Below are positions 3,886 through 27,695 of a stretch of DNA of 29,994 nt, piece after piece. The notes under the pieces are model-generated. The model was not told the DNA's origin. It was given only the letters and a program-made list of their open reading frames with translations, and made no database searches. Each line of letters begins with the position of its first letter. Position 1 is the stretch's first letter. Source of the DNA: a virus; the IMG/VR virus record IMGVR_UViG_3300025769_000560, positions 1 to 29,994 of that record. The stretch is one strand, 5' to 3'. The position numbers were made by a program, and so were the translations under genes.

Positions 3886-3903
3886 GGGATTGGATGATGA
3901 AAA

Positions 3904-6142: not shown

Positions 6143-6143
6143 T

Positions 6144-6491: not shown

Positions 6492-6502
6492 TAGGAAGCA
6501 GT

Positions 6503-9534: not shown

Positions 9535-9540
9535 ATTTTG

Positions 9541-9569
9541 TTGCAATCACTACATTTTGGGTGTATAGG
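9541..9569 (+). promoter_or_regulatory. Candidate sigma-70-like promoter for the capsid gene
   Basis: TTGCAA (9541-9546) and TATAGG (9564-9569) are separated by 17 bases and begin 6 bases after the scaffold stop. Each has 4 of 6 consensus matches. A promoter here would raise capsid expression over scaffold, as the separate phi10 promoter does in T7. Confidence 0.4.
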
Positions 9570-9574
9570 CAGAT

Positions 9575-9695
9575 TAAGGGCTAACCGCTGCGCGGCCCCT
9601 TGATGTGGTAATCCACTGGTGGGCGCGGCCACTTTCGCGCAAGCGACTGCCCGGTTTACATCGGCTAACAGTAAGCGTTTTGAGTTGAAACCTAA
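9575..9695 (+). promoter_or_regulatory. GC-rich structured leader of the capsid gene
   Basis: The 176 bases between scaffold and capsid genes contain no gene. They have several small stems: GTGG-TAAT-CCAC (about 9605-9616), GCCC pairing with GGGC around it, and GCGCG pairing with CGCGC (within about 9622-9642). GC content is clearly above the flanks. The capsid start follows with AGGAGG at about 9699-9704. An RNA leader that affects stability or translation of the capsid message is the simplest reading. It does not form a tRNA. Confidence 0.45.
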
Positions 9696-9710
9696 TAGGA
9701 GGCTTCTGCT

Positions 9711-10544
9711 ATGGCGCAGAGTATTACTAATGCCTTTGTAACGCTTTTTGATGAGGAAGTTAAACAGGCATACCAAGGCGAAGCGTTGCTTCGCGGCACA
9801 ATGCGGACACGTACCGGTGTCCAGGGTAACACAGTAAAGTTCCCAAAAATCGGTAAAGGTGTTGCAACAGTTCGTGTTCCACAAACTGACGTAACTCCGT
9901 TGAACGTAACCTATAGCCAGGTTACCGCCACAATGTCTGATTATATCGCAGCAGAATATTCAGACATCTTCCATCAATCACATGTCAACTTTGATGAGCG
10001 CCGTGAATTGGTGCAGGTTGTTTCAAAAGCGATTGCTCGCCGTATGGACCAGCTTTGCATTGATGCACTTGATGCGGCTGCATCTCCATCAACTGTTGCG
10101 ACATCTGTGGGTGGTGCGTCTTCAAACATGAACATCGAAAAACTTCGTGCGGCTGCGAAAGCACTGAACGATAACAACGTACCAGCCGAAGGTCGTCACT
10201 TGTTGATGCACTCTTCTCAGCTTGATGCGTTGCTCGGTGAAACAGAAGTTACTTCAAGCGACTTTGCTTCCGTAAAAGCACTTGTTCGCGGTGAGATCAC
10301 TTCGTTCATGGGCTTCAACATTATCACAATGGGTGATCGTGATGAAGGCGGTGTTCCTAAGCCATCAACCCGCACATGCTTTGCTTGGCATCAAGACAGC
10401 ATGGGTTATGCTGAAAGCATCTCTCAGAAGTCAGAAGTAAACTACATCCCAGAGAAAACATCGTTCCTCGTAAGTTCTATGTTCTCTGCTGGTGCGGTTG
10501 CTATTGACGATGAGGGCATCGTTAAAATCTCATGTACTGAATAA
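9711..10544 (+). CDS. Major capsid protein
   Basis: This 277-residue protein follows the scaffold and has the best Shine-Dalgarno in the window (AGGAGG). The pattern LFDEEVKQAYQGEALLRGTM, VKFPKIGKGVA, SDYIAAEYSDIFHQSHVNFD and VSKAIARRMDQLCIDALDAA is that of HK97-fold capsid proteins of BPP-1-like and marine podoviruses. Hexamers and pentamers of it build the head. It is shorter than T7 gp10A (345 aa). Codons are more optimised than in neighbours (frequent GCA, GTT and AAC), as expected for a highly expressed gene. Confidence 0.9.
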   Translation: MAQSITNAFVTLFDEEVKQAYQGEALLRGTMRTRTGVQGNTVKFPKIGKGVATVRVPQTDVTPLNVTYSQVTATMSDYIAAEYSDIFHQSHVNFDERRELVQVVSKAIARRMDQLCIDALDAAASPSTVATSVGGASSNMNIEKLRAAAKALNDNNVPAEGRHLLMHSSQLDALLGETEVTSSDFASVKALVRGEITSFMGFNIITMGDRDEGGVPKPSTRTCFAWHQDSMGYAESISQKSEVNYIPEKTSFLVSSMFSAGAVAIDDEGIVKISCTE

Positions 10545-10559
10545 GAAGGAGATTAAGAC

Positions 10560-10799
10560 ATGGCATTCGCGCAAGCAAACTGGGCAACTGTTGCAGCTTC
10601 TAAAGCTGGTTCAGCGCCAAACATTTATAGCTATAAATCAGCGACAGATAACAAGGCCGCAATTGCTGGCTCTGGTTATTTCAATACCGTTGAGGGTCTT
10701 ATCACAACCGGTGATTGGATTTACACTTATGGCTCAGATGGCGGTCAAACTTTGGTCGCAACAAATACCGCTGGTGTTATTACGACAACAGCAATCTAA
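10560..10799 (+). CDS. Probable head decoration protein, 79 aa
   Basis: It lies directly after the capsid gene with AAGGAG upstream. The sequence AFAQANWATVAASKAGSAPN, IYSYKSATDNKAAIAGSGYF, TVEGLITTGDWIYTYGSDGG reads as a small all-beta domain. Proteins of this form follow the capsid gene in many podoviruses and prophages, and are taken to be decoration or minor head proteins. The evidence is position and pattern only. Confidence 0.65.
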   Translation: MAFAQANWATVAASKAGSAPNIYSYKSATDNKAAIAGSGYFNTVEGLITTGDWIYTYGSDGGQTLVATNTAGVITTTAI

Positions 10800-10805
10800 T
10801 CCCCT

Positions 10806-10832
10806 GGGGGGCTGGGCAACTGGCCCCCTTCA
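10806..10832 (+). terminator. Hairpin after the capsid and decoration genes
   Basis: GGGGGC (10807-10812) and GCCCCC (10823-10828) form a perfect 6-base GC stem with a 10-base loop. Only TT follows, and no U-tract, so it may be a partial terminator or an RNA-stabilising hairpin. T7 has its main terminator in the corresponding place after gene 10. Confidence 0.45.
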
Positions 10833-10850
10833 AACTCTTGGAGGGCTATA

Positions 10851-11468
10851 ATGGCAAGTAATGACACAGATATTACTATTTGTTCGGATGCTTTAGTTCT
10901 CTTGGGCGCACAGCCCATAACGTCCTTAACGGATGGCAGTGATCCGGCAGACGTTTGTAATCGTCTTTACCCAGATCTTAAAAATCACTTACTGACAGTT
11001 TATCCTTGGAGTTGGAGCCTTAAAAAGGTTCAACTTAGTAAAAATGCAACGGCTCCCGTTAATGAATGGGATAATGCTTTTGATCTGCCAAATGATATAA
11101 TTGGCAGTGTTATTGCTGTTTTTGATAGCAGTTCAAGCGGCATACGTCCAAGGCGCTATGGATGGGAAATCTATGGCACTCAGTTATTTACCAACTTAGA
11201 CACCATCTACATTGATTATCAGGCAACGGTTGTTGAATCCAGTATGCCAGAGTATTTCATACGTTTCTTGCGTGTGGCACTGGCCGCAGAGATTGCTATT
11301 CCAATAACGGATCAGGCAACAAAAGCACAAGATCTTCGCTTACAAGCATATGGTTCTCCAGGCGAAGCTGGTCGTGGCGGGTTGCTGCGTGAGGCAATGA
11401 ACATCGATGGGCGTGGTCAAGGTACGCAAATTGTGGAGGACTATTCTCTTATTCAGGCGAGGTACTGA
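10851..11468 (+). CDS. Tail tubular protein A (gp11-like)
   Basis: The 205-residue protein matches T7 gp11-type adaptors that form the ring between portal and nozzle. Signature-like parts are ICSDALVLLGAQPITSL near the N-terminus, LYPDLKNHLLTVYPWSWSLKK at 39-59 and FIRFLRVALAAEIAIPITDQ further on. Length is close to T7 gp11 (196 aa). GGAGG precedes the ATG. The stop shares one base region with the next start (TGATG), so the two tail genes are probably translated together. Confidence 0.85.
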   Translation: MASNDTDITICSDALVLLGAQPITSLTDGSDPADVCNRLYPDLKNHLLTVYPWSWSLKKVQLSKNATAPVNEWDNAFDLPNDIIGSVIAVFDSSSSGIRPRRYGWEIYGTQLFTNLDTIYIDYQATVVESSMPEYFIRFLRVALAAEIAIPITDQATKAQDLRLQAYGSPGEAGRGGLLREAMNIDGRGQGTQIVEDYSLIQARY

Positions 11469-14400
11469 TGAGAATTACGCAATATCAGTCTAACTTTTCT
11501 ACCGGAGAAATAGACCCCCTTCTACGGGCTAGAACAGATCTTCAACAATATCAGAATGCTTTGGAAGAAGCGACAAATGTTATCGTGCAACCTCAAGGCG
11601 GGATTTCTCGCAGAGATGGTTTAAAGTTTGTTCACAGCTTTTCAACATCGTTTACTGATTTCAAGCTGATTCCCTTTGAGTTTAGCGTAAGTGACAGCTA
11701 TCTATTGGTGTTTGTTGTTGGCCGCATTTATGTTTTCAAAAGCGGAACATTGCAGACAAACATAAACGGATCTGGCAATGATTACATCACGGCAACCGAT
11801 ATTACAGCGGCAATGCTTGATGAGCTTGAATATACGCAAGCTGTAGATACCCTAATTCTTTGCCATGAAGATCTTCAGACAAAACGCCTTGTGCGTAATT
11901 CTGACACGTCTTGGACGCTTGAGAACCTGCCTCTGACCAATCCGCCACAATATGCTTACGCGCTTGATGAGCATTCTCCTAATTTTACGATTACGCCCAG
12001 CGCAACAACTGGGAATATTACAATTACTGCATCTTCTGTGACCACTGATAACGGAACAGCACAGGCTGGTACGGCAGATACAATTACTTTGAAAACAGGT
12101 ACATCACCTTACTCATCCGATGATGATGCAAATGGTCTGTGGATAACACTTACAGCCGGAACGGGTTCGGGGCAAGAAAGATATATTTCAGATTGGGTTG
12201 CATCAACAAAGGTCGCAACTGTCTATCCCGCCTGGACAACACAACCAGATAATACAACCCAGTATAAGGTTGCAGCATTTGCGGCATCTGCAATTAACAA
12301 CTTTGCTCAAGTAGAAAATACTTTTGGCCGTGTAAAGTACATTGAATATGTCAGCGATACCATAATGAATGCTGTTGTTGAGGTTCCGTTCTTTGACACA
12401 AGCGGCGTTGTTGCTGGTAATTGGATTGGCGAATTTGGTTATGAAGATGTTTGGTCAAGCACTAGAGGATGGCCAAGATCGGCAACTTTCCATGAAGGCA
12501 GATTGTATTTTGGTGGCTCTAAGTCCAGACCAAATACCGTTTGGGGTTCGCGTGTAATTGATTACTTTAACTTTGACTCTCATACTGGATTGGATGATGA
12601 GGCTGTTGAAACGACCATTAACACAAACCAACTAAATTCGATTGTGAATATCGTATCTGGTGCGGATTTGCGTATTTTCTCAACGGGCGGTGAGTTTATT
12701 GTTGTTCAATCAGAAGATACTCCAATTACACCAAGCAATTTTTTGGTGCGGCCACAAACCCGGCTTGGTGCAAAAGCCGGTGTGCCGATTGAAGATCTAA
12801 ACGGCGCAACCATTTTTGTTCAACGCCAGGGTAAGTCAATCAATGCCTTTCAGTTTGGAAGTGAAACTAATTCTTACCAAGTGCAAAACATTTCTTTGCT
12901 ATCGTCCCATTTGCTAAATACCCCCGTAGACCTTGCGGCCAGACGTGCGTCATCTACAGATGAATCTGACAGATTATTTGTTGTGAATAGCGGTGATGGC
13001 TCAATGGCGGTGTACTCCATTTTGGTGGGTCAGAATGTTATAGCACCCAGCAAATTCACCACAGACGGAACATTTGAGGCTATAGCGGTAGAATTGCAAG
13101 ATGTTTATGTCATTGTAAAAAGAACCATCAATTCAGTAGATAATTACTTTCTTGAGGTATTTGATAGCAGTTTAACGCTAGACAGTGCAAAGACAGGCAC
13201 ATCTGCAAGCTCTGTAGACATGAGCCATCTTCTAAACAAGACTGTTAAACTTATAAGTGATGGGGATATTGAGGCGGATCAAACGGCTGCGGCAAGTCCT
13301 TTAAACTTTACGTTTGCACCAACCACCAGTTTTCAGGCTGGATTAGATTACACAGTCCAGGCAAAGACAATGCCAACGGAACCAACGCTTGCATCTGGTT
13401 CATTGCATGGAGTAAGAAAGCGGGTGGTGCAAGTTGACAGCTTGTTAGATAGCTCTCAAAATCTAAAGATAAATTCTAAGGTTGTTTCTTTTGATCGGAC
13501 AAGTAGCGCCGCCGCTCAAGTAACTATTAACAATGCAACCTATGACTCTAAATTCTTTCAAGTTCCAGACCCGTATGATAACAACGACAGTGATGCAGTA
13601 AGTTTCAGATTTAAGTCTGATGGTTCTTTGCTGTTCGTTTTGGATGATCAAATCGGTGGCGTTGGTAGCGGCTGGACAATCACACAATTCACCTTAGCAA
13701 CGCCGTGGGATATTTCTACAGCAACTAATCAAACAATTGTTGAATCTGAATCTCTTCTCGTACCAAATGTAAAGGGTTTTGACTTTAGCGCTGATGGCAC
13801 CAAGGTGTTTTATTTAGAAGAAGATAGCCAAGAAATTGTGCAATACAATTTAACTAAAGCGTGGGATTTAACCACTGGTTTAAAGGTTAATGCAAATACG
13901 TTTGATTTTTCCAGCATTGGATCGAATAACGAGCAAAGTTTTGTATTCTCCCAGAATGGTCTAAGGGCTTATATTGTTTCAGGAAGTGATGATCGAATAT
14001 ATCAACTTAATTTAACAGAAGCTTTTGATGGCTCAACATTTAGCGATGCGTCAAAAACACTAGACGTAAGTGCAAAACTTTCCTTTCCACACGGTGTTGC
14101 AATAAGTGCTGATGGAAAAAAGATATTTGTAACAGGTCGCTTGGATACAACTATTGAAGAATATACGCTTTCCACTGCATATGAGCTTGATAGCGCTTCT
14201 CATACTGCAAGCTATACAGTACCTCATGCAACCACTGAAAGCGTACACGAAATTGTTCTAAAACCAGACAATACAAGGTTCTATGTCTTAGATTCAAAAA
14301 CGGTAGGTTTTACCACTACAAATTATATTTACCAGCATACGCCAGTAACAAAGCTGTTTCCAGTATCGGAATACACTGGATTAAAAACCGCGCATGGTTT

Positions 14401-14501: not shown

Positions 14502-14954
14502 ATGGCGGGAGTAGCAGCAGCACCTTTAATGTTGGCTTCATCGGCGGTTAGTGCATACGGTCAGATGAGAGCCGGTCAAGCCCAGCGTGAAATGTATGAT
14601 GAGCAAGCCGCTCAAGCTAGAATGCGTGGGCGATCAGAGGCTATTGCGTACAAGCAACAAGGCGCTGATGTTCTTCGTAATCTAAATGAAAACTTAGCTG
14701 CAATTATTGCACGATCAGCGGCGGGAGGTGTTGATCCAACAAGCGGATCTGCGGCAGTCATGCAACAATATGCAATGGCCGAAGGTATTCGAGAGAAGAA
14801 TATTGCAGCGGATAATGCACTCTTGGCAGAGGGTCAGGCGGCAACCCAAGCACATCAATACCGCATGGCTGGTCGAGCCGCTCAACAAGCGTCTTATTTC
14901 CAAGCAGCGGGTACGCTTGGGATGGGTATTTATAGATATGGACAGTTAGCATAA
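14502..14954 (+). CDS. Internal virion protein, small (gp14-like position)
   Basis: The 150-residue protein begins with a short hydrophobic stretch (AAAPLMLASSAVSAY), then a long Ala/Gln/Arg helix (QAQREMYDEQAAQARMRGRS) and GGVDPTSGSAAVMQQYAMAE, typical of small internal core proteins that follow the nozzle gene in podoviruses. In T7 the corresponding protein helps to form a channel through the host envelope during DNA entry. Function is inferred from order and composition. The next gene starts on the last base of its stop. Confidence 0.65.
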   Translation: MAGVAAAPLMLASSAVSAYGQMRAGQAQREMYDEQAAQARMRGRSEAIAYKQQGADVLRNLNENLAAIIARSAAGGVDPTSGSAAVMQQYAMAEGIREKNIAADNALLAEGQAATQAHQYRMAGRAAQQASYFQAAGTLGMGIYRYGQLA

Positions 14955-17512
14955 TGGCCAGATTACCGAGATATCAAAGAGCGGGTGTTCGCACTCGGCA
15001 ACCTCAAGCTATAGAGTTTGCGGGCCTAAGAGAACAGGCCCAGCTTGGCCAACAGATATCTCGCAGTTTTGACCAAATGTCACAGTTTCTATACCAGACA
15101 GGCGCAGAAGAGGCTGAGAGGCGCGGTATTGAGCGTATACGCACGGAAGGGGCGCAGCCGGTACTTGAGGCGCTTCGTGAACAAGGTGGCCCTAGAACCA
15201 TTGCAGAGAAGGCTGCGTATGAAGCCGGTAATCGTGTGGCCGTTGCTGAGATCCAAGCTGAAGCAGATCTTGAAATTACAAGAATTTTGAATGAAGGCCA
15301 AAAGAACAAAACATCATTCTCTGCCATTCAAGCGCAGCTAAAAGATGTTACTGATGGTTTCCCGGCGGCATTGTCTAACATCGATCCGGTATCTGCCGGG
15401 GTTCTTCGTACCAGACTTACAGAAGCCTCTGGCAAAGCGGAGATGCGCTATTCTAAGTGGTGGACCGGAGAACAGACAAAGCTTCGTAAGGAAAAGCAAA
15501 ACCGTGTTTCTGCAAATGAAGCAGAGATTATTATCGGAAATGCTACGACTCCGGGTTACACTGTCAAACAGATTGAGCTTGATATTAAAAACGGATCTGA
15601 AACACTTGCGGATTTAGGTGTAAAACCTGAGTTGATTGTAGAATGGGCCGATGGTGTAAGAGAAAAAGCCATCAAAGAAAAAACAACATTTGAATTTTAT
15701 CAAAAACCTATTGAAGAACAACGCGAAGAAATAGAAAGCATTTTATCTGGCGATAAGACTTTGCCGGGTATGGACTTTGAAGATAGTGTTCGGTTTGTAA
15801 ATGGATTGTTGCGGCCAGAATATAATCGGAATGTTGCGGTTGTTAAGGCTCAGTCTGATTATGTAGTAAACAAAATAGAAGATCAGCAAGAAATCCTTGA
15901 AGATGGTGGTCGTCTTTCTCAGGAAATACTGGCGGATTTAAACAATGCGGTAGATGAAATTCTTACGGCTGATCCTCAACGCGGCCCTGCATTACAAAGT
16001 GCTATGAAGTCTTTGCAAGAAACTGACGAGTTTTTTAGTGGCTTGCGTAGTCTGTCATTAACTGATGCTGAGGCTGCGGTGTTTCAATTGCAGTCTGGCA
16101 TGGAAGGTCGTGGCGGCGAGGGGATTGATACGGTACTTGAACAAAAGCGATATGAGCAAGCAAGTAAGTTCTTAGACAATATGAGAACCCAAATCAGCAA
16201 AGATCCTATGGGTTATGCTGAACGTGTTGGCTTTATTCAAAATGTTGAACAAGTAATAACTTTTGATGAAAATCGGCGTCCGGTTATAAATGAAAGTGCT
16301 ATGCGGCAAAGGCAAATTCAAGCGCAAAGTGTGGCCAATCATTATGGTCTTGCCGTTCCAAGGGTTTTGTTTGGTGATGAGGCGCGACAGATTGGTTTAT
16401 ACTTAGATCAGATGGAAGGCGTAGCTAAGTTAGATATGCTCGGCGCTTTAGCTTCATTCGATCAGGCGGCTGGTCAGGTATTGACGGACATAGCAGAATA
16501 CAATCCAGAGATGGCGCTTGTTGGTGCGTTGGTAAATGAAGGCAGAATTGAAACTGCAAACATTGCGATTGCTGGTTTTGAGCGGTTGAAGCTTGGAGAA
16601 AAACCGGCTGAGTTTACGACAACAAATATAGATGAGGTGCATAGTCAATTTGGAAGAGCAATCACAACGCCCAAACATCATGCGGCGGTCAAAGAAGTTG
16701 CTAAGGCAATTTACACGGAAATGGCTGTAAGTAAGGGTGTTTTTACATTTGATGCTAATCTTTATGAGCAAGCTTATCAAATGGCGGCAGGGCAAACTGT
16801 TCGTGATGGCAAGGTATATGGCGGTATTCAAGAGGTTCGCGGTATGCAAACCTTCGTAATGCCGGGGATGACAGGCGATCAGCTAGAACAATACTTAAAT
16901 GAAATAAGTGTTGATGTTATTCAATCTGCAACGGGTCAGCAAATTAGTGGCAATTTAGCTGAACAAATTAAAGAAAACGAATCATATAGATTCCGTAATG
17001 TTGGCGGCAATAAATATTCAATAGAATATGGCGATAAGGGTGAGGCATTTGTTTCGGATGCAGATGGTCGGCCAGTTATTATTGATATTACACAATTACA
17101 AAAATCCTTTGCTTTAATACTGCCAGAAGTAAGCGCACCAGCAATGGGCACTGCGCAACCAATGCCCACTTCTGAAGAGATAACAACGGGCATAACGGGC
17201 TTAGAACAGATCACTGAAATATCTCCGGCAGCAGTTCAAGCACAACCTGCTTTAAGATTAGAGGATCTTCCAGAAGAGCTTGAATTTGTGCCTGGGTCTA
17301 AAGAAACCCGCGAATTGAAAAAGGCAATAGAAAGCATTTCTGAAAGCCCTAGAAAAGAAATAATGATTAAAAACATTGAAAGAATGCTGGATTCAATTGA
17401 AGGAGTTAGAAACAGAAAAAGCACTAAAGCATATAAACAAATGATACGCAGAAAAATGGCTAAAAACCCAACATTCTTTATGTCTTATGATGATTGGCTG
17501 AAAACACAATGA
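14954..17512 (+). CDS. Internal virion protein (gp15-like position)
   Basis: The 852-residue protein is mostly predicted helical, rich in Ala, Gln and Glu, with no transmembrane segment. It starts MARLPRYQRAGVRTRQPQ and has an early helical part (FAGLREQAQLGQQISRSFDQ) common in phage core proteins. By position it is the large ejection protein that enters the host with the DNA. There is no visible lytic transglycosylase motif. The C-terminal 90 residues are basic and helical (ENIERMLDSIEG region). The stop overlaps the next start (ATGA at 17509). Confidence 0.65.
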   Translation: MARLPRYQRAGVRTRQPQAIEFAGLREQAQLGQQISRSFDQMSQFLYQTGAEEAERRGIERIRTEGAQPVLEALREQGGPRTIAEKAAYEAGNRVAVAEIQAEADLEITRILNEGQKNKTSFSAIQAQLKDVTDGFPAALSNIDPVSAGVLRTRLTEASGKAEMRYSKWWTGEQTKLRKEKQNRVSANEAEIIIGNATTPGYTVKQIELDIKNGSETLADLGVKPELIVEWADGVREKAIKEKTTFEFYQKPIEEQREEIESILSGDKTLPGMDFEDSVRFVNGLLRPEYNRNVAVVKAQSDYVVNKIEDQQEILEDGGRLSQEILADLNNAVDEILTADPQRGPALQSAMKSLQETDEFFSGLRSLSLTDAEAAVFQLQSGMEGRGGEGIDTVLEQKRYEQASKFLDNMRTQISKDPMGYAERVGFIQNVEQVITFDENRRPVINESAMRQRQIQAQSVANHYGLAVPRVLFGDEARQIGLYLDQMEGVAKLDMLGALASFDQAAGQVLTDIAEYNPEMALVGALVNEGRIETANIAIAGFERLKLGEKPAEFTTTNIDEVHSQFGRAITTPKHHAAVKEVAKAIYTEMAVSKGVFTFDANLYEQAYQMAAGQTVRDGKVYGGIQEVRGMQTFVMPGMTGDQLEQYLNEISVDVIQSATGQQISGNLAEQIKENESYRFRNVGGNKYSIEYGDKGEAFVSDADGRPVIIDITQLQKSFALILPEVSAPAMGTAQPMPTSEEITTGITGLEQITEISPAAVQAQPALRLEDLPEELEFVPGSKETRELKKAIESISESPRKEIMIKNIERMLDSIEGVRNRKSTKAYKQMIRRKMAKNPTFFMSYDDWLKTQ

Positions 17513-20500
17513 TACAGTTTGATCGATCAGATGCGTATGATTTTCCCGGCATGGTTGGTATTTCTGAGCCGGTATCTGACTTTGCAGAAAACTTTTTTGC
17601 TGCACAAGATAATATGCGTCTTAACGATCAGTCTCAAAGTAAAGAGCTTATTCTTAAAGATTTGTGGACGCCTATTGTTGAAGAGATGCGTGAGACATTC
17701 CCCAACCAAGGATTTGGTGGTCGTGATTTTGAGAATCCGGCAGACTTCTTAGGGATCGGACTAGGTGTTTATAGTTCAGCCGGTGGCCCACAGGACAGAT
17801 ATAACTTTGCTGTAAATACTCTCCTGAATTTTATGAACGAAAATCAGGAAAGCTTACCAGATCATTTAAAAGGGATTACGGTTCAAAGCTTAGAGGATAT
17901 TGCAAAGGAACGTGCGCAAGCTGCAAGAAAATATGCTGAAGAAGTTGGTGCAAGAAACTTTACGTTTAGCGGAACGGTTGGTCAATTTGTTGGTGGTGTT
18001 TCTGGTGTAATTGATGATCCTATCAATGCGTTTGGTATTATGGGGGCTGCATCCAAAAATCTATGGCGGTTAGCATTTACTGAGGCTGCGATTGGTGCGG
18101 GTACTGGCGCAATAGCAGAGGCCGGTGTTGCGGATTGGTATGAAGAATTAGGGTATGATTACACATATCAAGACTTTCTTCGCAATGTTGCATACAATGC
18201 GGTGGGCAGCGCAACGTTTGGCGTGGGTATTCGGGTATCAGCGGATGCCGCAAAAAAGGGTTGGAATGCAATCAGCAAGTCTGGCAAGGCAAATAAAAAC
18301 AGTCAAGCCTTAGCAGATGCGGCAGAAGCAAGAGAAGAGCTAGAGGCTGATAACCCATTTACAGATGCGGATCTACCTCCGGCACAGGCAGAGCATACTT
18401 CCAGAACAGTAAGCGCAGAAGCGGCGATTGAGAACAATACCCTGCCTACAATGCCAAATGAGGCCACTATTCAGCCATCACCTGAGATGATTGAAGCGGC
18501 CACTGATAATCTTAATGGCGTTATGTTCTCTGTAAATCCAAGAGATGTAAATGTTGATGCTAAACGCTTTCAGTTTAAAGAGGGCGGCGATGAGTATGGC
18601 GTCACTGAGGGGTTGCAAGGTGTAACTGAGTGGGATCCTATTAAAGCTGGGACTGTTATCTTCTGGGAAGATGTTGACGGTAAGATATTTGTGGCCGATG
18701 GACACCAGCGTGTCGGTCTGGCTCGGCGTATCCAGTCACAAAAGCCCGATGAGAAAATAGAGATCATTGGCTATAAATTGCGTGAAACAGACGGTGTAAG
18801 CGCAGAGAAAGCCCGTGTGATAGCGGCAATGACAAATATTGCACAAGGCACTGGCACAGCAATTGATGCCGCTAAGGTGCTTCGTATAGAGCCTGAACGC
18901 ATTGCAGAATTGCCGCCTCGATCTGTTTTGGTTAGGCAAGCGCGGGATTTGGTAAACCTTAGCAACCAAGCATTTGGTGCAATTGTAAATGAGGTTATTC
19001 CATCAAACTATGGTGCGGTAGTTGGTAGATTGATTGACGATCCTGATTTGCAAGATGCCGCCATTGCGGTTTTGGCGAAGTCAGATCCAGCAAACCTTTT
19101 CCAAGCAGAGGCAATAGTACGCCAGGTGCGGGAAATGGACACTGTGCAAGAAACGCAAGTATCTTTGTTTGGCGAAGAAATTATCACGGACAGTTTGTTT
19201 ACAGAACGCGCACGGGTTCTTGATAGAACAACTAAGCTTTTGCGTGGTGATAAGGCGGCGTTTGAAAGCCTAAGTAAAAACGCTGAACGTATTGAAGCAG
19301 AAGGCAATAAGCTTGCCAAAGAACAAAACCAAAGGAGAGCCGACCAAGATGCCCAAGCGATCACGCTCATACAAGCGCTTGCAAACCGGAAAGGCGTCCT
19401 CAGCGATGACCTCTCAGCGGCAGCAAGAACAGCTAGAGAAACAGGAAACTATGCAGAAGCAGCCCGAAACTTCGCCGATGCTGTCAGACGAGGAATTGAA
19501 CGAGGCGATTTTGATGGGGCGTCAACTGGCGATGTTGGACGCGCTGTCGATGTTGCGCCGCAAAGCCGCGCAGACGCGATTGAAGAAGAGCCAACTCTAG
19601 AGGGATTTGATGAACCAACTGGCCCAGCGGCAGAGGCCCAGACCGATCAGATGGCAATGGATATGTTCCGGACGCTCGATGAGCCAGAGCAACTGCGCAT
19701 TGAATCTCCGATTGAGGAGGATCGTGTTGATCTGGAGCAGATCCGGATGCCAATCGATGATGATCTGCCTCTTGACCAGGTACGCGCCCAGGTAAAAGCA
19801 TTGACCGATGAGAACGTGCCACTTGTTAAAGATCTGATTGCGCGGATCGATGCAAAGTTTGGCACCAAGTCCGGGGACAATATTAAGGATCTAGCCAAGG
19901 TTACGCAGAAAGCAAACCGTCCCTCGATCCTGGCAAAGAAACCCTGGCACAAGACATCACACATTCGTGATAGTTATCGCTTCAAGACAGTAATCGATGA
20001 TATCCGGGACGTTCCGGCAATCTTCGATGAGCTACTGGCAAGCGGGATTAGCCTGGTTAAAGTTGATACAGGTAAACTATTCGAGCCGAAAGAATGGGGA
20101 TGGCGGATCATTGCGTTCGATCTGCGTATGCCAAACGGTCAGTTGGTAGAATGGTATTTACCGATCAAAGAGCTAGAAGCGCAGAAGAAAGCCGAGGGGC
20201 ATTTGCTATTCGAGGAATGGCGAAACAAAACCCCAGAGGAGATTCTGGAGCAAAATGATTCATACATGGAAACCATCCGCAAAAGCTGGAATGGTTATGA
20301 CCAGGCGTTTCAATCGTCGTTAGATCGTATGGGCATTTCGAGAGAAGATGCAGCCGCTTCCTGGTCTAAGGCAGAAAGCTCCATGCTGGAAGCTGCACGG
20401 AAATCACCAAGCTCATCTGGCATGATAACATCTGCAACCGTTCGCGGCGCAGAGATCCAGGAACCGTCTATTGTACGGATGGCCGAAGAACCATCGGTCC

Positions 20501-20757
20501 AGAAAAGCATGGCACGGGATGTGCCTTCCTCGATAAGTGCAAAGTCTGTTTCAGACATTGGTGAACCTCCTACTGAAGATATAAGCGATATTACAATAGA
20601 TATCAAGCCCGATGACTTTGATTTAGAAATTCCACTTGCATCAACGCTTGATGAAGATGGAAATGCAATTGCAGTAACAAAAACATTGCGTGATATTAAG
20701 GCTGATATCGATGCAGAGGATGCACTGATTAACCGTTTGGGGGTATGTGGTCTATGA
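17509..20757 (+). CDS. Large internal virion protein with ParB/DdrB-like and RelA/SpoT-like regions
   Basis: I start at ATG 17509, in an ATGA overlap with the previous gene; TTG 17494 is less likely. The protein has 1082 residues. Residues about 345-500 (FKEGGDEYGVTEGLQGVTEW, then FVADGHQRVGLARR) match the DdrB-like ParB-superfamily domain found in phage polyvalent proteins. Residues about 805-905 (RDSYRFKTVIDDIRDVPAIF, LVKVDTGKLFEPKEWGWRII, GQLVEWYLPIKELE, HLLFEEWRN) resemble the RelA/SpoT nucleotidyltransferase fold in layout. The first 150 residues are a typical ejection-protein start. Such proteins are thought to enter the host with DNA and act early. Both domain names are from pattern memory, the second less sure. 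A candidate nested gene lies at 19349-19600. Confidence 0.7.
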   Translation: MIQFDRSDAYDFPGMVGISEPVSDFAENFFAAQDNMRLNDQSQSKELILKDLWTPIVEEMRETFPNQGFGGRDFENPADFLGIGLGVYSSAGGPQDRYNFAVNTLLNFMNENQESLPDHLKGITVQSLEDIAKERAQAARKYAEEVGARNFTFSGTVGQFVGGVSGVIDDPINAFGIMGAASKNLWRLAFTEAAIGAGTGAIAEAGVADWYEELGYDYTYQDFLRNVAYNAVGSATFGVGIRVSADAAKKGWNAISKSGKANKNSQALADAAEAREELEADNPFTDADLPPAQAEHTSRTVSAEAAIENNTLPTMPNEATIQPSPEMIEAATDNLNGVMFSVNPRDVNVDAKRFQFKEGGDEYGVTEGLQGVTEWDPIKAGTVIFWEDVDGKIFVADGHQRVGLARRIQSQKPDEKIEIIGYKLRETDGVSAEKARVIAAMTNIAQGTGTAIDAAKVLRIEPERIAELPPRSVLVRQARDLVNLSNQAFGAIVNEVIPSNYGAVVGRLIDDPDLQDAAIAVLAKSDPANLFQAEAIVRQVREMDTVQETQVSLFGEEIITDSLFTERARVLDRTTKLLRGDKAAFESLSKNAERIEAEGNKLAKEQNQRRADQDAQAITLIQALANRKGVLSDDLSAAARTARETGNYAEAARNFADAVRRGIERGDFDGASTGDVGRAVDVAPQSRADAIEEEPTLEGFDEPTGPAAEAQTDQMAMDMFRTLDEPEQLRIESPIEEDRVDLEQIRMPIDDDLPLDQVRAQVKALTDENVPLVKDLIARIDAKFGTKSGDNIKDLAKVTQKANRPSILAKKPWHKTSHIRDSYRFKTVIDDIRDVPAIFDELLASGISLVKVDTGKLFEPKEWGWRIIAFDLRMPNGQLVEWYLPIKELEAQKKAEGHLLFEEWRNKTPEEILEQNDSYMETIRKSWNGYDQAFQSSLDRMGISREDAAASWSKAESSMLEAARKSPSSSGMITSATVRGAEIQEPSIVRMAEEPSVQKSMARDVPSSISAKSVSDIGEPPTEDISDITIDIKPDDFDLEIPLASTLDEDGNAIAVTKTLRDIKADIDAEDALINRLGVCGL
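19349..19600 (+). CDS. Candidate nested gene, 83 aa, in another frame
   Basis: An open frame lies inside the large internal virion gene. AAAGGAGAG (19331-19339) stands about 10 bases before ATG 19349. The product is basic at the start (MPKRSRSYKRLQTGK), Gln-rich in the centre and ends with a helix (LSDEELNEAILMGRQLAML). It has no known relative I can name. Other unused frames of this size exist in the window, so only the Shine-Dalgarno and sensible composition support it. Confidence 0.25.
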   Translation: MPKRSRSYKRLQTGKASSAMTSQRQQEQLEKQETMQKQPETSPMLSDEELNEAILMGRQLAMLDALSMLRRKAAQTRLKKSQL

Positions 20758-23225
20758 GTACATTTAGGCAGTGTGTTGAAGATGGTGTAAGGGCTGGTGA
20801 AATTACTCAAGCACAAGCGGATGAATATGGTAATTTGTTCGATGAATTGGTTGAGCAATACAACCAACAACTAGGACCAGGCCCAGCGCAAACAAAAGCC
20901 GGGATCGATGCAGCGGCGGCTGTTCGTAAAAAGTCTATAGAGCGCAAGCGTCAAGCAATGCTGCAAGCTATAACCTGGAAAAAGATTAGCGTGGATATGG
21001 CAAGCTATCGTAATGTTGCTGGCCAACAGAATATGAACAAAGCGGCCTTGGCTCTTTTTGAACAAGACATTAATTCAAAGTATGCAAGCATTTCGCAGCT
21101 ACAGGCAACCATTGAGCGCAGCGCTACCCGGAAGATGGATAAGTTCTTAGCAACATTCCGCCGTGATCTGCTTGGCCGTACCCGTAATAAAGCACAACTC
21201 AAAAACATGGTTAGGGAAGCATTCGGGGAAAACACAGGCGATGCGTCAGCCAGAGAATTAGCATTTGCTTGGAAGGAAGGTTCCGAATATTTACGCAAGC
21301 GTTTCAATGCGGCTGGGGGTGCCATTCCTTACCGTTTAGATTGGGGGTTGCCACAGCAACACAACACATTGAAGGTACGTGAAGCGAGTTACGAGGAGTG
21401 GCGGGAATATATCACAGCGCGTCTTGACCTGGATAAAATGAAGGACATGGAAACCGGGCTACATTTCTCGGCAGAAAAACTTGAGTTTGTTATGCGGGAT
21501 GTTCACGAGACAATCCGCACCGATGGCATGAGCAAGATTAAACCAGGCGGTCGGCCAACGGGCGGTAAGTCTTTGGCAAATAGAAATGCAGACCACCGCT
21601 TCTTGGTATTTAAAAACGCTGATGCCTGGATGGAGTATCAGGAAAAGTTTGGGAATGATAATCCCTTTGATGTGATGATGGGCCATATCAGCAATATGTC
21701 CAGGGACATTGCATTCATGGAGCGTCTGGGGCCAAACCCGATGGCGACTAAGAACTTCATTAAGCAAACCCTGGCTAAATCTGCGGCAGGGGATCAGAAG
21801 GCGGAGGATGCAGCTAGATCCACAAACAAAAAGGTGGACGAGCTTTATAACATTCTCCAGGGAACACATAATACACCGGTCAATCGCTTCTGGGCCACAA
21901 CATTCGCGGGAACCAGGCAGCTATTGCAGTCGGCACAGTTAGGAGCGGCGGCGATCTCAGCGATCACCGATGTAAACTTTAACCGCATTGCTAGGCGTAT
22001 GAATGGCTTGCCGCAAACAAAAACGCTTATGCAGTATGTAAAGTTATTGCAGCCTTTAGGTGCTGAGGAAAAGGGCAAGCTTGCAATTCGCCTAGGGCTA
22101 ACGGCGGAGGGTTGGTCTACCCTGGCGGCAGCACAGATGCGCTATGTCGGGGATATCTCTGGCCCGGAGATAACGCGCCGGGTCGCAGATTTTGTAATGA
22201 GGGCATCGCTTCTATCGCCAATGACACAAGCTGGGCGCTGGGCTTTCGGCATGGAATTTCTGGGGACGCTGGCCGATAACGTAGGCAAGTCTTTTGATGA
22301 ATTAGATCCGGTATTCCGTAAGGCTATGGAGCGTTATAATATTAACGGTGATCGTTGGGATATTATTCGGCAAACGGAGCTATACGATTACAAGGGCGCA
22401 AAGTTTTTACGGGCTGAGGATATAGAGTTTCGTGATGACATCGATCCTAGATTGGCCAGAGAATTAGCAACCGATATTATGCGGATGGTTGAGACTGAAA
22501 CAAATTTTGCAGTCCCATCAACATCAATACGTGGCCGGGCTGCACTTACTGGTGATATTCCTTCAGGTACATTTGCCGGTGAGATGGTGCGATCATTTGC
22601 CATGTATAAAAACTTTGGTGTTACTTTGGTGAATACTCACATCATGCGCGGTGCTGGTACGCCAGGCGTCAAGGGTAAGGGTCGATACTTTGCTGATCTA
22701 CTTATTAGCACGACACTCATGGGTGCATTAGCTCTTCAGCTAAAAGAAATGTCTAAGGGTCGTGATCCCAGATCCGTTGAAGATCCTGAGTTTTGGGGCG
22801 CTGCGTTCTTGCAAGGTGGCGGGTTAGGAATATATGGAGATTTTCTCTTTGCAGACTTAAACAGATTTGATCGTGGCTTGGCTGAAACTATTGCTGGTCC
22901 GGTTGTGGGTTTTGGAAACGATATCAAAAATCTTACGGCTGGGAATATTATTGAGGCGGTCAAGGGTGAAGATACAAAGGCGGCAAGTGAAATGATTAAC
23001 TTTGCTCAAAGATACACGCCGGGTGCATCGCTTTGGTACATGCGTCTTGGCTTAGAGCGGATGGTCTTTGACCAAGCGAAACTGTGGGCTGATCCTGATG
23101 CTGGCAAAAAGATCCGGCGTAATATTCGCAAGTATCAAAGAGAATATGGTCAGGATTACTGGTGGACACCTGGACAAATGCAACCGTCAAGAGGGCCAGA
23201 TTTTGACAATGTGTTTGGAAATTAG
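20754..23225 (+). CDS. Large internal virion protein (gp16-like position)
   Basis: ATG 20754 overlaps the previous stop (ATGA), giving 823 residues. It is helical, with parts I recall from the last large core protein of BPP-1-like phages and related prophages: FWATTFAGTRQLLQSAQLGA, FVMRASLLSPMTQAGRW, AMYKNFGVTLVNTHIMRG and a C-terminus RYTPGASLWYMRLGLERMVF then EYGQDYWWTPGQ. A few weakly hydrophobic segments (LLISTTLMGALALQL, about residue 655) may insert in membrane during ejection. It closes the internal-protein block; 38 bases separate it from the next gene. Confidence 0.7.
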   Translation: MSTFRQCVEDGVRAGEITQAQADEYGNLFDELVEQYNQQLGPGPAQTKAGIDAAAAVRKKSIERKRQAMLQAITWKKISVDMASYRNVAGQQNMNKAALALFEQDINSKYASISQLQATIERSATRKMDKFLATFRRDLLGRTRNKAQLKNMVREAFGENTGDASARELAFAWKEGSEYLRKRFNAAGGAIPYRLDWGLPQQHNTLKVREASYEEWREYITARLDLDKMKDMETGLHFSAEKLEFVMRDVHETIRTDGMSKIKPGGRPTGGKSLANRNADHRFLVFKNADAWMEYQEKFGNDNPFDVMMGHISNMSRDIAFMERLGPNPMATKNFIKQTLAKSAAGDQKAEDAARSTNKKVDELYNILQGTHNTPVNRFWATTFAGTRQLLQSAQLGAAAISAITDVNFNRIARRMNGLPQTKTLMQYVKLLQPLGAEEKGKLAIRLGLTAEGWSTLAAAQMRYVGDISGPEITRRVADFVMRASLLSPMTQAGRWAFGMEFLGTLADNVGKSFDELDPVFRKAMERYNINGDRWDIIRQTELYDYKGAKFLRAEDIEFRDDIDPRLARELATDIMRMVETETNFAVPSTSIRGRAALTGDIPSGTFAGEMVRSFAMYKNFGVTLVNTHIMRGAGTPGVKGKGRYFADLLISTTLMGALALQLKEMSKGRDPRSVEDPEFWGAAFLQGGGLGIYGDFLFADLNRFDRGLAETIAGPVVGFGNDIKNLTAGNIIEAVKGEDTKAASEMINFAQRYTPGASLWYMRLGLERMVFDQAKLWADPDAGKKIRRNIRKYQREYGQDYWWTPGQMQPSRGPDFDNVFGN

Positions 23226-23263: not shown

Positions 23264-23515
23264 ATGGTGAAATCAAACCTCAGAGGCAGCAACCCGGCAG
23301 ACGGTGCGGCTGCGGTAACGCCCAATGATGGCGCGGATTTAGCGTTTGTTGCAAGGGCTTTGTATGTTGGCGGTGCTGGCAATATTAAGATCGATACACC
23401 TAATGGCGATACTGTAACATTGTATGGCGCAACGGCTGGATCTGTTTTGCCAATTAGAGCAAATAGGGTTTACAGCACTGGAACAACTGCAACTAACATT
23501 GTGGCTTTATACTAA
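23264..23515 (+). CDS. Small phage structural-type protein, 83 aa
   Basis: AAAGGAG lies 8 bases before ATG 23264. The core FVARALYVGGAGNIKIDTPN and GDTVTLYGATAGSVLPIRAN followed by RVYSTGTTATNIVALY is a compact beta protein seen, from memory, in many phages and prophages close to tail-fibre genes. It could be a small tail or spike-base component. The next gene starts on its last base. Confidence 0.65.
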   Translation: MVKSNLRGSNPADGAAAVTPNDGADLAFVARALYVGGAGNIKIDTPNGDTVTLYGATAGSVLPIRANRVYSTGTTATNIVALY

Positions 23516-24435
23516 TGCAAATTTCAATCAGCACATCAATTTCTCAGCTTAAATTTGGCGCTGCTGCTGGAGCTTGGCTGCTTGATGGTGGTGTTTGGAA
23601 TGATGCAGGTGTTTGGGATGACAGTGCAACTTGGGATGATGGTGCGGTAAGTTGGACTAATCCAGATATAAATAATGCAAGCTATGACAGTGTTTTCTTT
23701 AGTGTTACCACACAAGAAAGCATTCCCGCTGGACTAATCTTCAAGCCTGATGGCACAAAGATGTATATTATTGGAACAAACGCAGATGCAGTTCTCCAAT
23801 ATGGATTAAGTACAGCATGGGATTTGTCTACAGCCTCTTATGATAGTGCCAGCGCAGATGTTTCTGGAGAAGAGGATGCGCCAAGAAGCGTTTTCTTCAA
23901 AGATGATGGTACATCATTTTATATTGTTGGAACGACTAGTGATGCTGTGTACCAATACAACATGACAACCGCATGGGATTTAAGTACCGCATCGTATGCA
24001 AGTAAGAGCGCAGATGTTTCTGGACAAGAAACTTCTCCAAGATGTGTGAGATTTAAAACAGATGGTACTTCTTTTTATGTGGCAGGTACTGCTAACGATT
24101 CAATTAGCCAATACGATATGACAACAGCTTGGGATGTTTCAACAGCTTCGTATGCTTCCAAGCAATTAGATGTTTCTGCTCAAGAAGGATCACCGTTTAC
24201 TTTTGATTTTAGTCCCAATGGAGATAAAGTTTGGTTAGTTGGCACCAGTGATACGGTGCGTGAATATACCTTGAGTACTGCTTGGGATATTAGCACAGGG
24301 TCGCATGAATCTTCAGTTTCATTTACTACATCTAATGAAGATGCAACTGCTGTATCTATGACATTTAAGTCTGATGGTTCTAAGATGTATTTGCTGGGCG
24401 CTGCCACTGACACGGTTTATCAATACTCAACATAG
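23515..24435 (+). CDS. Beta-propeller tail-fibre-region protein, 306 aa
   Basis: After a 30-residue start and a W-D-rich stretch (VWNDAGVWDDSATWDD), the protein consists of five repeats of about 46-50 residues. Each has F(K/S)xDGxxxYxxGTxxDxVxQYxLSTAWDxSTASY; the cores are FKPDGTKMYIIG, FKDDGTSFYIVG, FKTDGTSFYVAG, FSPNGDKVWLVG and FKSDGSKMYLLG. This is a propeller-type repeat. The same domain, starting NNA(S/T)YDS-(V/K)FF, is inserted in the tail nozzle protein. Position between core proteins and tail fibre suggests an adhesin or a fibre adaptor. The start overlaps the previous stop (TAATG). Confidence 0.7.
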   Translation: MQISISTSISQLKFGAAAGAWLLDGGVWNDAGVWDDSATWDDGAVSWTNPDINNASYDSVFFSVTTQESIPAGLIFKPDGTKMYIIGTNADAVLQYGLSTAWDLSTASYDSASADVSGEEDAPRSVFFKDDGTSFYIVGTTSDAVYQYNMTTAWDLSTASYASKSADVSGQETSPRCVRFKTDGTSFYVAGTANDSISQYDMTTAWDVSTASYASKQLDVSAQEGSPFTFDFSPNGDKVWLVGTSDTVREYTLSTAWDISTGSHESSVSFTTSNEDATAVSMTFKSDGSKMYLLGAATDTVYQYST

Positions 24436-24445
24436 GAGCTAAGAG

Positions 24446-25672
24446 ATGGGTACATTTAATGATGGCGATAGCGGCTCTTCGATCCGAACAAAGCTAAACA
24501 CCGCTATTCAAAAGACAGAAGGCACAAGCGCAATCAGCACAATTGATGTTGATGGTGGTGCTATTGATGGCGTTACGCTTGGAACAAACAGTGCGGTAAC
24601 AGAAGCGCAAGTTGATAACATTAACATTAACGGAAATACTATCTCAAGCACAGATACCAATGGCGATGTTACGATTGATCCAAATGGTAGTGGTGATGTT
24701 AATATCGGCAACTTTAAGTTTGATGCAGACCAGACTGTAGGCGCTGGGCAAGACAACTATGTTTTAACTTACGACAATGCTGGTGGTAAGATTAGCTTAG
24801 AGGCTGCTTCTGGTGGTGCTTCTTTATCTCTATACGCTGAAAATGCTAGTGGTGAAACAACCCCAACTGCTACAGGCACAAATGCTGTTGCGGTCGGCAA
24901 TGCGGCGGTTTCGGCTGGTACGGATTCCGTTGCATTAGGAAACTCAAGGGCTGGTGGAACAGATTCTTTTGCTGCGGTAATTAATAATAATACCAGTTCA
25001 TTTGGCGCAACACAAAGTTCTTCAATAGCAATTGGTAATAACGCTAAAGGCACAGGTGTATTTGGAACGTCAATTGGATACAATACTGTTGCCAGTGCGG
25101 GAAATGCTGTTTCTGTGGGCCGAAGTGCTTCAGCAACAGGCAATCAATCCGCAGCATTTGGTTATCAGCCTCAAGCATCAGGAGAAAGATCAACTGCTTT
25201 CGGAGATAGTGCAAAAGCACAACTTCTTGGAAAGCTTGCTTTTGCTGGAAAGCAACTTGGTTCATCATCAGTATATGCCCAACAGGGTCTTTATATATTA
25301 ATGGCACAAACATCAGATGCAACTGCAACTGCTTTAACCACTGATAATTCGACTGCTGGAACAACTAACCAGATTGTTTTACCTAATAATAGCGCTCACT
25401 CTTTTCATGGTACTATTGTGGCTAGAGAACAAGCATCTTCTGGTACTGATTGTGCTGGTTGGGAAATAAAAGGTCTGATTAGGCGAGAGGGTTCTGCTTC
25501 TACTGCAACATTAATTGCATCAACCGTAAGTGCAATTGATAATACACCTTCATGGGGCATGGCTTTATCTGCTGATATAACAAATGGTTCCCTTAAAATC
25601 GAAGCTACTGGTGCAGCATCTACAAATATAAGGTGGATTGCTACAATTCACACCTCTGAAGTGAGTTACTAA
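24446..25672 (+). CDS. Tail fibre with YadA-like head repeats
   Basis: The 408-residue protein starts MGTFNDGDSGSSIRTKLNTA, a common attachment end of marine phage fibres. Repeats DGDVTIDPNGSGDVNIG (about 75-92) give a beta-strand shaft. Residues about 145-257 are YadA-head-like 14-residue repeats (NAVAVGNAAVSAG, SSIAIGNNAKGTG, NAVSVGRSASATG, QSAAFGYQPQASG, RSTAFGDSAKA), which form a trimeric left-handed beta-roll. The last 150 residues (LYILMAQTSDATATALTTDN through IRWIATIHTSEVSY) form the tip I recall from marine phage and cyanophage fibres. It probably binds the host receptor. Confidence 0.8.
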   Translation: MGTFNDGDSGSSIRTKLNTAIQKTEGTSAISTIDVDGGAIDGVTLGTNSAVTEAQVDNININGNTISSTDTNGDVTIDPNGSGDVNIGNFKFDADQTVGAGQDNYVLTYDNAGGKISLEAASGGASLSLYAENASGETTPTATGTNAVAVGNAAVSAGTDSVALGNSRAGGTDSFAAVINNNTSSFGATQSSSIAIGNNAKGTGVFGTSIGYNTVASAGNAVSVGRSASATGNQSAAFGYQPQASGERSTAFGDSAKAQLLGKLAFAGKQLGSSSVYAQQGLYILMAQTSDATATALTTDNSTAGTTNQIVLPNNSAHSFHGTIVAREQASSGTDCAGWEIKGLIRREGSASTATLIASTVSAIDNTPSWGMALSADITNGSLKIEATGAASTNIRWIATIHTSEVSY

Positions 25673-25684
25673 AGGAGAAATCAA

Positions 25685-25990
25685 ATGGCTATTCAAAACA
25701 ATATTGCCGCCGAAAATAGTGAATATGGTATCGCATTTAGTAATGCGTATTATAGGATTGTAAATCTTGCCATAACGCGAAATGTAGGTGATGATTTTAA
25801 GTTTCAAATAATGATTGATTTATTTGGATATGCAACAACATCTCCTAGCGATGAGTCCAGAGAGGTCAGTGCTAAAAGATATTATGCAAATTTATCTGAC
25901 ATTGAAACGAAGTCCGGCGATGATTTTCTTAGCAAGTGTTATGCTTGGTTAAAAGATCAATCAGAGTTTTCAGGTGCTTCTGACTCATAG
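25685..25990 (+). CDS. Small protein after the tail fibre, 101 aa
   Basis: AAAGGAG precedes ATG 25685. The protein starts AIQNNIAAENSEYGIAFSNA and continues YYRIVNLAITRNVGDDFKFQ, a beta-rich core, then a helix (DDFLSKCYAWLKDQSEF). It resembles small proteins that accompany marine phage fibres, which may be fibre-tip or assembly proteins. No motif shows a catalytic role. Confidence 0.6.
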   Translation: MAIQNNIAAENSEYGIAFSNAYYRIVNLAITRNVGDDFKFQIMIDLFGYATTSPSDESREVSAKRYYANLSDIETKSGDDFLSKCYAWLKDQSEFSGASDS

Positions 25991-26857: not shown

Positions 26858-26922
26858 GTGATGATCTGGTGAAGCGGCTGCGTGATTGCGCCATCGCAGG
26901 AGATATCGGATGCAAGGAATAA
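26854..26922 (+). CDS. 22-aa leader peptide before the methyltransferase
   Basis: A strong AGGAGAGG (26843-26850) lies just before ATG 26854. The peptide MSDDLVKRLRDCAIAGDIGC-KE resembles the first residues of Ea22-like phage proteins (DDLVxRLRD), but ends after 22 codons. It overlaps the methyltransferase start by 13 bases. It may be a remnant of a longer gene or a coupling leader. Confidence 0.45.
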   Translation: MSDDLVKRLRDCAIAGDIGCKE

Positions 26923-27695
26923 ATCTTATGCAAGGCGACTGCCTTGAGAGAATAAAAGAGATAAAGGATGGATCAGTGGACATGGTTTTGACCAGCCCGC
27001 CGTATAACATTGGCAAGGCTTACGAGACTGTGGTTCCGCTTCGTGAATATGTTGACTGGCAGAGCCGCATCATAAGAGCTGTTTCGTCTAAACTTAAAAA
27101 CGGCGGTAGTATTTGCTGGCAAATTGGCAACGCTGTGATTGATGGAGCTGTTTACCCAATTGATTGTTTACTGTTTAGCGCATTCATTGACGCTGGGTTG
27201 ACGCCACGAAACCGCATTGTGTGGACGTTCGGACATGGCCTTCACTGCAAACGTCGTTTTTCTGGAAGACATGAAACCATCCTGTGGTTTACGAAAGGGA
27301 ATGACTACACGTTCAACCTAGATGCTGTCAGGGTTCCATCAAAGTATCCGCAGAAGAAATACTACAAAGGCCCCAAAAAAGGGATGGTGTCCAGCAATCC
27401 TCTTGGAAAAAATCCAGAGGATGTTTGGGCAATATCAAACGTAAAGCACAATCACCCTGAAAAAACGGAGCATCCATGCCAATATCCAGAGCATCTATGT
27501 GATAGGCTTGTTCTGGCGTTGACAAACAAGAATGATACAGTCCTTGACCCATTTATGGGTAGTGGCACGACAGGCGTTTCCTCAAAGAACCTGAGCCGTT
27601 CTTTCATAGGCATTGAATTGGATGAAAGGTATTTAAGAATTGCTCAAGACCGCATCATGCGCTTTCCCGATGATCCGACTAACGACGATGCTTGA
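26910..27695 (+). CDS. Beta-class DNA methyltransferase (N6-adenine or N4-cytosine)
   Basis: ATG 26910 follows CAGGAGA at 8 bases. In the 261-residue protein the catalytic motif TSPPYN (28-33) comes before the S-adenosylmethionine-binding DPFMGSGTTG (213-222) and FIGIELDERYLRIAQDR; this order defines the beta class. The variable region between (FSGRHETILWFTKGNDYTFN, SKYPQKKYYKGPKKG) holds target recognition. The SPPY form allows either N4-cytosine or N6-adenine methylation. No restriction partner is next to it, so it is an orphan that probably protects phage DNA or changes gene regulation. Direct repeats at both ends suggest cassette insertion into the lysis region. Confidence 0.88.
   Translation: MQGINLMQGDCLERIKEIKDGSVDMVLTSPPYNIGKAYETVVPLREYVDWQSRIIRAVSSKLKNGGSICWQIGNAVIDGAVYPIDCLLFSAFIDAGLTPRNRIVWTFGHGLHCKRRFSGRHETILWFTKGNDYTFNLDAVRVPSKYPQKKYYKGPKKGMVSSNPLGKNPEDVWAISNVKHNHPEKTEHPCQYPEHLCDRLVLALTNKNDTVLDPFMGSGTTGVSSKNLSRSFIGIELDERYLRIAQDRIMRFPDDPTNDDA

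Follow-up and report, generated by a model that had tools for sequence, protein, structure and literature searches.

The window, by which we mean the whole stretch of DNA analysed, covers an entire virus record of 29,994 bases that derives from an uncultured bacterial virus of probably marine origin, and its genes follow a podovirus late-gene order. RusA, terminase, a GNAT/internal protein, the head-tail connector, a scaffold-like gene and the major capsid gene are followed by tail tube A, tail tube B, a gp14-type internal virion protein and an 852-aa protein, after which come the ORF at 17494-20757 that is the subject of this work, an 826-aa virion structural protein, the tail fibre and the endolysin. 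OM43 phage MEP301 is the nearest isolate as judged by the portal protein; its connector shares 60% identity with the one here, and its annotated gene order resembles that of the record; no homologue of the gene at 17494-20757 was found in MEP301 by tblastn. A small protein encoded at 5424-5906 matches both the internal virion protein family PHROG_308 and an acyltransferase family, and the syntenic gene of MEP301 is called an acetyltransferase. The neighbours of the ORF are as follows:

14502-14954, + strand: gp14-type internal virion protein (PHROG_418, 6.8e-13)
14954-17512, + strand: 852-aa protein without family match, placed in the gp15 position from gene order
20745-23225, + strand: virion structural protein (PHROG_684, 2.8e-175), whose homologues in Vibrio and Salmonella phages bear a structural annotation

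The ORF thus named lies in the structural cluster after the gp14- and gp15-type genes, which is the position of T7 gp16. It shares with gp16 and other podovirus ejection proteins this position and a large size; in contrast to them, no transglycosylase domain was found in it and no sequence similarity was detected. The earlier note had called the product an internal virion protein, and we keep the label as plausible from gene position, because the neighbours match PHROG families of internal virion protein, tail tube and virion structural protein.

The ORF is single and intact on the + strand (17494-20757, 1087 codons from TTG 17494) and contains both the ParB-like and the RelA-like stretches described below. 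The ATG at 17509 is a likelier start than the TTG; residues are numbered here from TTG 17494 as 1, so that 5 has to be subtracted if ATG 17509 is used. Its parts are:

17509-20757, + strand: whole gene, with orthologues in about 80 viral contigs
17509-18483, + strand: N-terminal region, residues 6-330, with Gly/Ala-rich hydrophobic segments and no family match
18523-19098, + strand: ParB/Noc-like domain, residues ~344-535, with an FQFK box (AF2 and Foldseek)
18688-18711, + strand: FVADGHQR motif, residues 399-406, its D-G-H-Q-R invariant in 20 sequences
19171-19593, + strand: helical linker region, residues ~560-700 (alignment and AF2)
19631-20617, + strand: exchangeable cassette, 987 bp long (69 bp at the same place in the related contig L126)
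19771-20403, + strand: RelA/SpoT-fold synthetase domain, type A, residues ~760-970 (AF2, Foldseek, BFVD and hhalign)
20404-20598, + strand: Ser/Pro-rich linker of low complexity at the end of the cassette, residues ~971-1035 (AF2 pLDDT below 50 at its start)
20611-20754, + strand: C-terminal tail, residues 1040-1087 (comparison of relatives)

This is a real gene, since about 80 viral contigs (collected from the best 80 of 472 matches plus other loci) contain intact homologues and its dN/dS is low. All the peptides quoted in the earlier note are present in this frame, with FKEGGDEYG starting at residue 361, FVADGHQR at 399, DSYRFKTV at 826 and FEEWRN at 906; the interval 18540-20230 that it gave corresponds to residues 349-912, and its residue numbers were 10-20 too low. 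The N-terminal region is conserved in relatives carrying every type of cassette and, judging from its position, is probably the virion or ejection part, while the C-terminal tail is retained by close relatives regardless of the cassette, even when the cassette is absent. No HExxH protease motif, through which a domain could possibly be released, was found in the protein. The Ser/Pro-rich stretch, which may be a linker or a processing site, follows copies of the module in giant, unrelated phage proteins as well.

The ParB-like block, which contains VDAKxFQFKxGGDE, is 44-98% identical to 19 other sequences, far above chance. An AF2 model of residues 325-690 reached a mean pLDDT of 74, with about 75-91 per 10-residue block in the ParB-like part, and includes a helical portion similar to the ParB helix-turn-helix. 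When this model was compared to the PDB by Foldseek, the best match was Noc (7nfu, E 6.8e-4) with ParB entries next; these matches cover the N-domain and the adjoining helix-turn-helix part, at a TM of only 0.2-0.3 on the query. Sequence profiles gave no support, as PHROG_1033 ParB matched only at E 0.12 and hhalign against a small, diverse set of cellular ParB proteins and P1 DdrB returned nothing. A ParB-like fold is plausible to likely for residues ~344-535, and of the description "ParB/DdrB-like" proposed earlier, the first half finds support in the DGHQR motif and the modest Noc/ParB fold match, although sequence profiles are silent. The second half is not supported by profile, since PF18763 recovers phage P1 DdrB at 5.9e-42 but matches neither the window nor any of the related records searched. 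A family annotated as portal protein carries this ParB-like domain close to its C-terminus, and giant phage proteins have it too (the entries concerned are PHROG_21, PHROG_10691 and 3802-13035 of Ruegeria phage 45A6, L196).

The second block is a RelA/SpoT-type module. AF2, run with 31 aligned sequences, modelled residues 741-985 at pLDDT 89.4 and pTM 0.82, predicting a synthetase fold of a five-stranded mixed sheet with helical flanks, in which a helix, a strand, two helices, a strand, a helix, three strands and further helices follow one another in the order of small alarmone synthetases. Foldseek against the PDB gave 56 matches at E<=1e-3, and the 50 listed are all RelA/SpoT-family enzymes (RelP, RelQ/SAS1, other SAS, Tas1, Rel, CapRel or SpoT entries), led by RelP (1.4e-6), B. 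subtilis SAS1 (2.2e-6) and a Streptomyces exported SAS (2.5e-6), with Tas1 at 7e-6 and CapRel at 1.8e-4. Among the viral models of BFVD, the best neighbours include phage proteins annotated as RelA/SpoT, Tas1, DdrB-like and ART-PolyVal-like. The block is 39-96% identical to 30 other sequences, far above chance, with 30 invariant positions. It is, nevertheless, nearly invisible to sequence searches. Single-protein searches of Pfam, NCBIfam, PHROGs and PDB sequences returned nothing significant, and PF04607 gave no match above cut-off though it matches in control genomes; a module-only HMM found SAS2/RelP among PDB sequences weakly but in catalytic register (E 0.17-0.6). Against cellular RelA, hhalign gave P 0.006 for the module alone and P 0.002 for variant B alone, and the combined profile of types A, B and C reached E 6e-7 with a probability of 92; the type A model matches types B and C at up to 1e-8. 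Because PF04607 stays silent where the controls match, the module is a divergent relative of RelA/SpoT lying outside the Pfam family as modelled. The RelA/SpoT-like character suggested earlier is thereby upheld, with a structural match to the fold found and the key residues kept.

These residues were mapped on FaRel2, in which K66 and K74 are assigned to the ATP phosphates (PMC11782079), with K66, K74, D90, Y128 and E145 corresponding to K798, K806, D826, W870 and E886:

19885-19911, + strand: K798 and K806, which align with FaRel2 K66 and K74, in 58/58 type A, B and C sequences
19969-19971, + strand: D826, which aligns with FaRel2 D90, the catalytic Asp that binds Mg, in 58/58 sequences
20098-20103, + strand: G869-W870, the G-loop aromatic at the FaRel2 Y128 position, Trp or Phe in type A and Tyr in types B and C
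20149-20151, + strand: E886, equivalent of FaRel2 E145, in 57/57 readable sequences

R829 is likewise present in 57 of the 58 sequences. With these residues retained, the module is likely to be an ATP-dependent pyrophosphokinase. The substrate side has changed. Compared with the toxic small alarmone synthetases (toxSAS), type A has N796 for R64 and K831 for R95, both adenine-contacting positions, and Y888 for Q147. In addition, at the SxH of syn3, described as a feature of guanosine recognition (PMC12226406), type A has IxA while types B and C have DxK, and the GYxSxH and EIQIR signatures of (p)ppGpp synthetases are replaced in type A by GWRIIA and EWYLP. To judge from these residues, the loss of the SLH motif together with N796, K831 and Y888 could mean that activity is altered or lost. 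A canonical alarmone synthetase, making (p)ppGpp upon entry and driving the host into a stringent-like state, would agree with the fold and the ATP-side residues, and was the role proposed for RelA/SpoT domains of polyvalent proteins by Iyer et al. 2017 (PMC5512222); the altered SxH and EIQIR positions argue against it, and we regard it as unlikely, if less so than the other alternatives considered below. The product may still be of alarmone type, as the earlier note supposed, but with the guanosine-recognition signature missing, something other than (p)ppGpp itself is more likely, and the module is probably not specific for GTP/GDP.

The strongest feature of the locus, absent from the earlier note, is that the RelA-like block sits within an exchangeable cassette. 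In the relatives compared, the slot (residues ~713-1041) varies independently of the rest of the protein. Outside the cassette, the DNA of the window agrees with that of L126 to 97.2% as far as position 19630 and to 93.5% beginning at 20618. Similarly, L151 and L150 have unrelated cassettes flanked by 6.2 kb of 98.3% identity and, downstream, by 3.4 kb of 95.9% identity. The breakpoints are sharp in the DNA; those of pairs other than the window's are given as DNA coordinates only. Our census was drawn from the best 80 of 472 matches plus other loci, and its counts therefore describe close relatives only. Among 74 backbones of such close relatives, the tenant is a zeta-toxin kinase in 27 (PF06414 at 6e-19 in L012), Rel-C in 16, Rel-A in 13 and Rel-B in 10, while 5 have none and 3 were left out of the types as incomplete sequences. 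On the backbone tree of these 74 the tenant changes at least 28 times, and type A, with 12 changes against a shuffled mean of 12.2, is not clustered at all. Backbones that are 95-99.6% identical bear no insert, one of the three RelA/SpoT-type variants or a zeta-toxin kinase, and different tenants are carried by 13 of the 47 pairs of close relatives with backbones at least 95% identical. In L134 (5992-9693 region) and L131, an extra domain of ~190 residues precedes the RelA-type B domain; by eye it resembles an ADP-ribosyltransferase, an identification that we set aside as it has no Pfam match.

As the evidence for swapping comes wholly from metagenome-assembled contigs, mixed strains might have been assembled into chimeras that mimic cassette exchange. 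This is the least probable of all the alternatives, since the cassettes are in frame, each type recurs across many contigs from different samples, the breakpoints fall where the conserved flanks meet the cassette, and the forms with and without a cassette are each found in more than one contig.

Selection on the cassette is strongly purifying (dN/dS 0.03-0.05), compared with 0.05-0.24 in most of the unsaturated backbone comparisons. Between the window and L125, dS is 0.70 in the cassette and 2.2 in the ParB part, and the lower value fits a recent transfer of the cassette. These results bear on two further alternatives. One is that the slot is only a surface-exposed, insertion-tolerant loop of a core protein with a role in structure or assembly and none in the host, as might be suggested by the existence of insert-free phages in which the remainder is kept. 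It is very improbable, because complete enzyme domains of two unrelated folds fill the slot, each retaining its motifs, and purifying selection acts on them more strongly than on the carrier. The other is a catalytically dead domain that binds ATP or alarmones as a decoy, quenching host signalling or defence, or that regulates the ParB-like part. Several substrate-contacting residues unlike those of characterised enzymes speak for it. Yet the catalytic Asp and Glu and both phosphate lysines occur in every readable sequence of three diverged types, selection is strong, a pure binder could dispense with metal ligands, and the commonest alternative tenant among close relatives, the zeta-type kinase, is likewise an enzyme, so that we hold a dead domain to be unlikely, marginally more so than a canonical synthetase.

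The module is not confined to this protein. It is found within phage proteins of 2.5-3.2 kaa, two of which carry the large-polyvalent-protein domains LPD38 or LPD22, and as a solo gene with catalytic residues kept in the chromosome of an Obscuribacterales MAG (346 aa, L079 7617-8657) and in a cyanobacterial MAG (271 aa, L078 2051-2866). In the phylum of the Obscuribacterales genome, the solo module was present in 1 of 292 genomes. A search of isolated phages (50,697 records) gave only a weak match in a Bordetella phage (E 0.3), and plasmids gave none. As domain libraries miss the module and solo bacterial genes exist, toxic enzymes akin to alarmone synthetases may have here a branch that is still unannotated.

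The reading that we favour, with a probability of about 0.6, is that this is a polyvalent-type virion (ejection) protein whose slot delivers nucleotide-directed enzymes of host takeover, in this virus a RelA/SpoT-fold pyrophosphokinase. Several conflict-type domains are indeed found in one large late protein, together with domain shuffling, as in polyvalent proteins. The analysis shows the gene, its fold, the catalytic residues that are kept, the exchange at the slot and the purifying selection; we infer packaging, ejection, catalysis, acceptor and host effect along the following lines. A conserved carrier, composed of the N-terminal region, the ParB/Noc-like domain, the helical linker and the C-terminal tail, would hold the one variable slot and be ejected along with the DNA after adsorption. 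The ParB-like part would then serve to bind DNA, nucleotide or both, while the slot enzyme would move pyrophosphate from ATP to the 3'-OH of a host nucleotide acceptor, probably of adenine type (ATP/ADP or the tRNA CCA end) rather than GTP/GDP. Host metabolism or translation might thus be reprogrammed or blocked, or a nucleotide-based defence disturbed, at the first moment of infection. If so, finding a different enzyme or nothing in near-identical viruses is as expected of a slot that holds a weapon delivered to the host.

Virion delivery is plausible from gene order and from the precedent of the polyvalent proteins (PMC5512222), for which Iyer et al. 2017 described RelA/SpoT domains, DdrB-ParB domains and mosaicism, and noted zeta-like kinases both as MuF fusions and in conjugative elements. 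Like those proteins, among them the Helicobacter prophage jhp1044 group, ours is a large late-gene phage protein with ParB-like and RelA/SpoT-like parts and strong domain mosaicism. It differs in that its ParB part is not of the DdrB family, the metallopeptidase motif was not found, one defined slot accepts alternative tenants including the zeta kinase, the contig is of podovirus type rather than a prophage, and the RelA/SpoT subfamily lies outside Pfam, NCBIfam and PHROGs. From the prophage protein MuF-Apk2 it is clear that (p)ppApp can be the product of a RelA-fold domain associated with the phage head (PMC12226406). It resembles our protein in a particle-associated carrier (here by gene order), a swappable RelA/SpoT-fold region and a changed guanosine signature. 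There, however, the swappable region is C-terminal, whereas here a conserved tail resumes past the slot; moreover, our carrier is not MuF (no Pfam or PHROG MuF match), no immunity genes were recognised and activity is predicted. The toxSAS enzymes FaRel2 and CapRel, which are tRNA pyrophosphokinases, and the pppApp synthetase Tas1 have the same fold and K-K-D-E constellation, Tas1 and CapRel being among the structure matches of the module. In contrast to them, the residues equivalent to R64, R95 and Q147 are changed here, no antitoxin or capsid-sensing domain was seen, and the domain belongs to a virion-type protein of the attacker rather than to a defence gene. As for the zeta-toxin kinases of phage head and conjugative proteins, they occupy the same slot in 27 of 74 close relatives and are absent from the window's copy.

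Perhaps the slot is the effector bay of a podovirus ejection protein, in which lineages exchange RelA/SpoT-fold pyrophosphokinases of a new subfamily, not directed at guanosine, with zeta-type kinases at a pace above that of carrier divergence. It would then serve as a virion-delivered arsenal against the nucleotide pools or nucleotide-signalling defences of the host, with a pyrophosphokinase product or target that is possibly new. We put this joint reading forward tentatively, as somewhat short of an even chance. A turnover of tenants that outpaces backbone divergence would also suit a weapon between phages, with slot enzymes directed against superinfecting or resident rival elements, an alternative discussed for polyvalent proteins (PMC5512222). 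Our family search, with the neighbouring small genes outside its scope, recognised no immunity gene, which argues against such a weapon; we consider it improbable.

RelA/SpoT domains in polyvalent-type phage proteins are of an already known kind. What appear new are this RelA/SpoT-fold subfamily and the quantified, rapid swap by which RelA-type and zeta-type enzymes replace each other within a single podovirus protein; when we searched the literature for zeta/RelA slots in virions, the papers on polyvalent proteins and on MuF were the only ones found. If our reading is true, this would be a common virion protein family, with 472 related stretches in the viral collection, and its slot a list of enzymes useful at infection. 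The alternation of two unrelated nucleotide-active enzymes in one slot would point to one shared target or defence. The module family, which current domain libraries miss, occurs as a solo gene in bacterial genomes as well.

Elsewhere in the record, DNA methyltransferase genes lie near one contig end (734-1891, PHROG_363, 1.9e-68) and near the opposite end (26886-27695, PHROG_67, 9.3e-70), and the two may shield the genome against restriction. Past the tail fibre gene, three genes at 23515-24435, 24446-25672 and 25685-25990 have no PHROG match.
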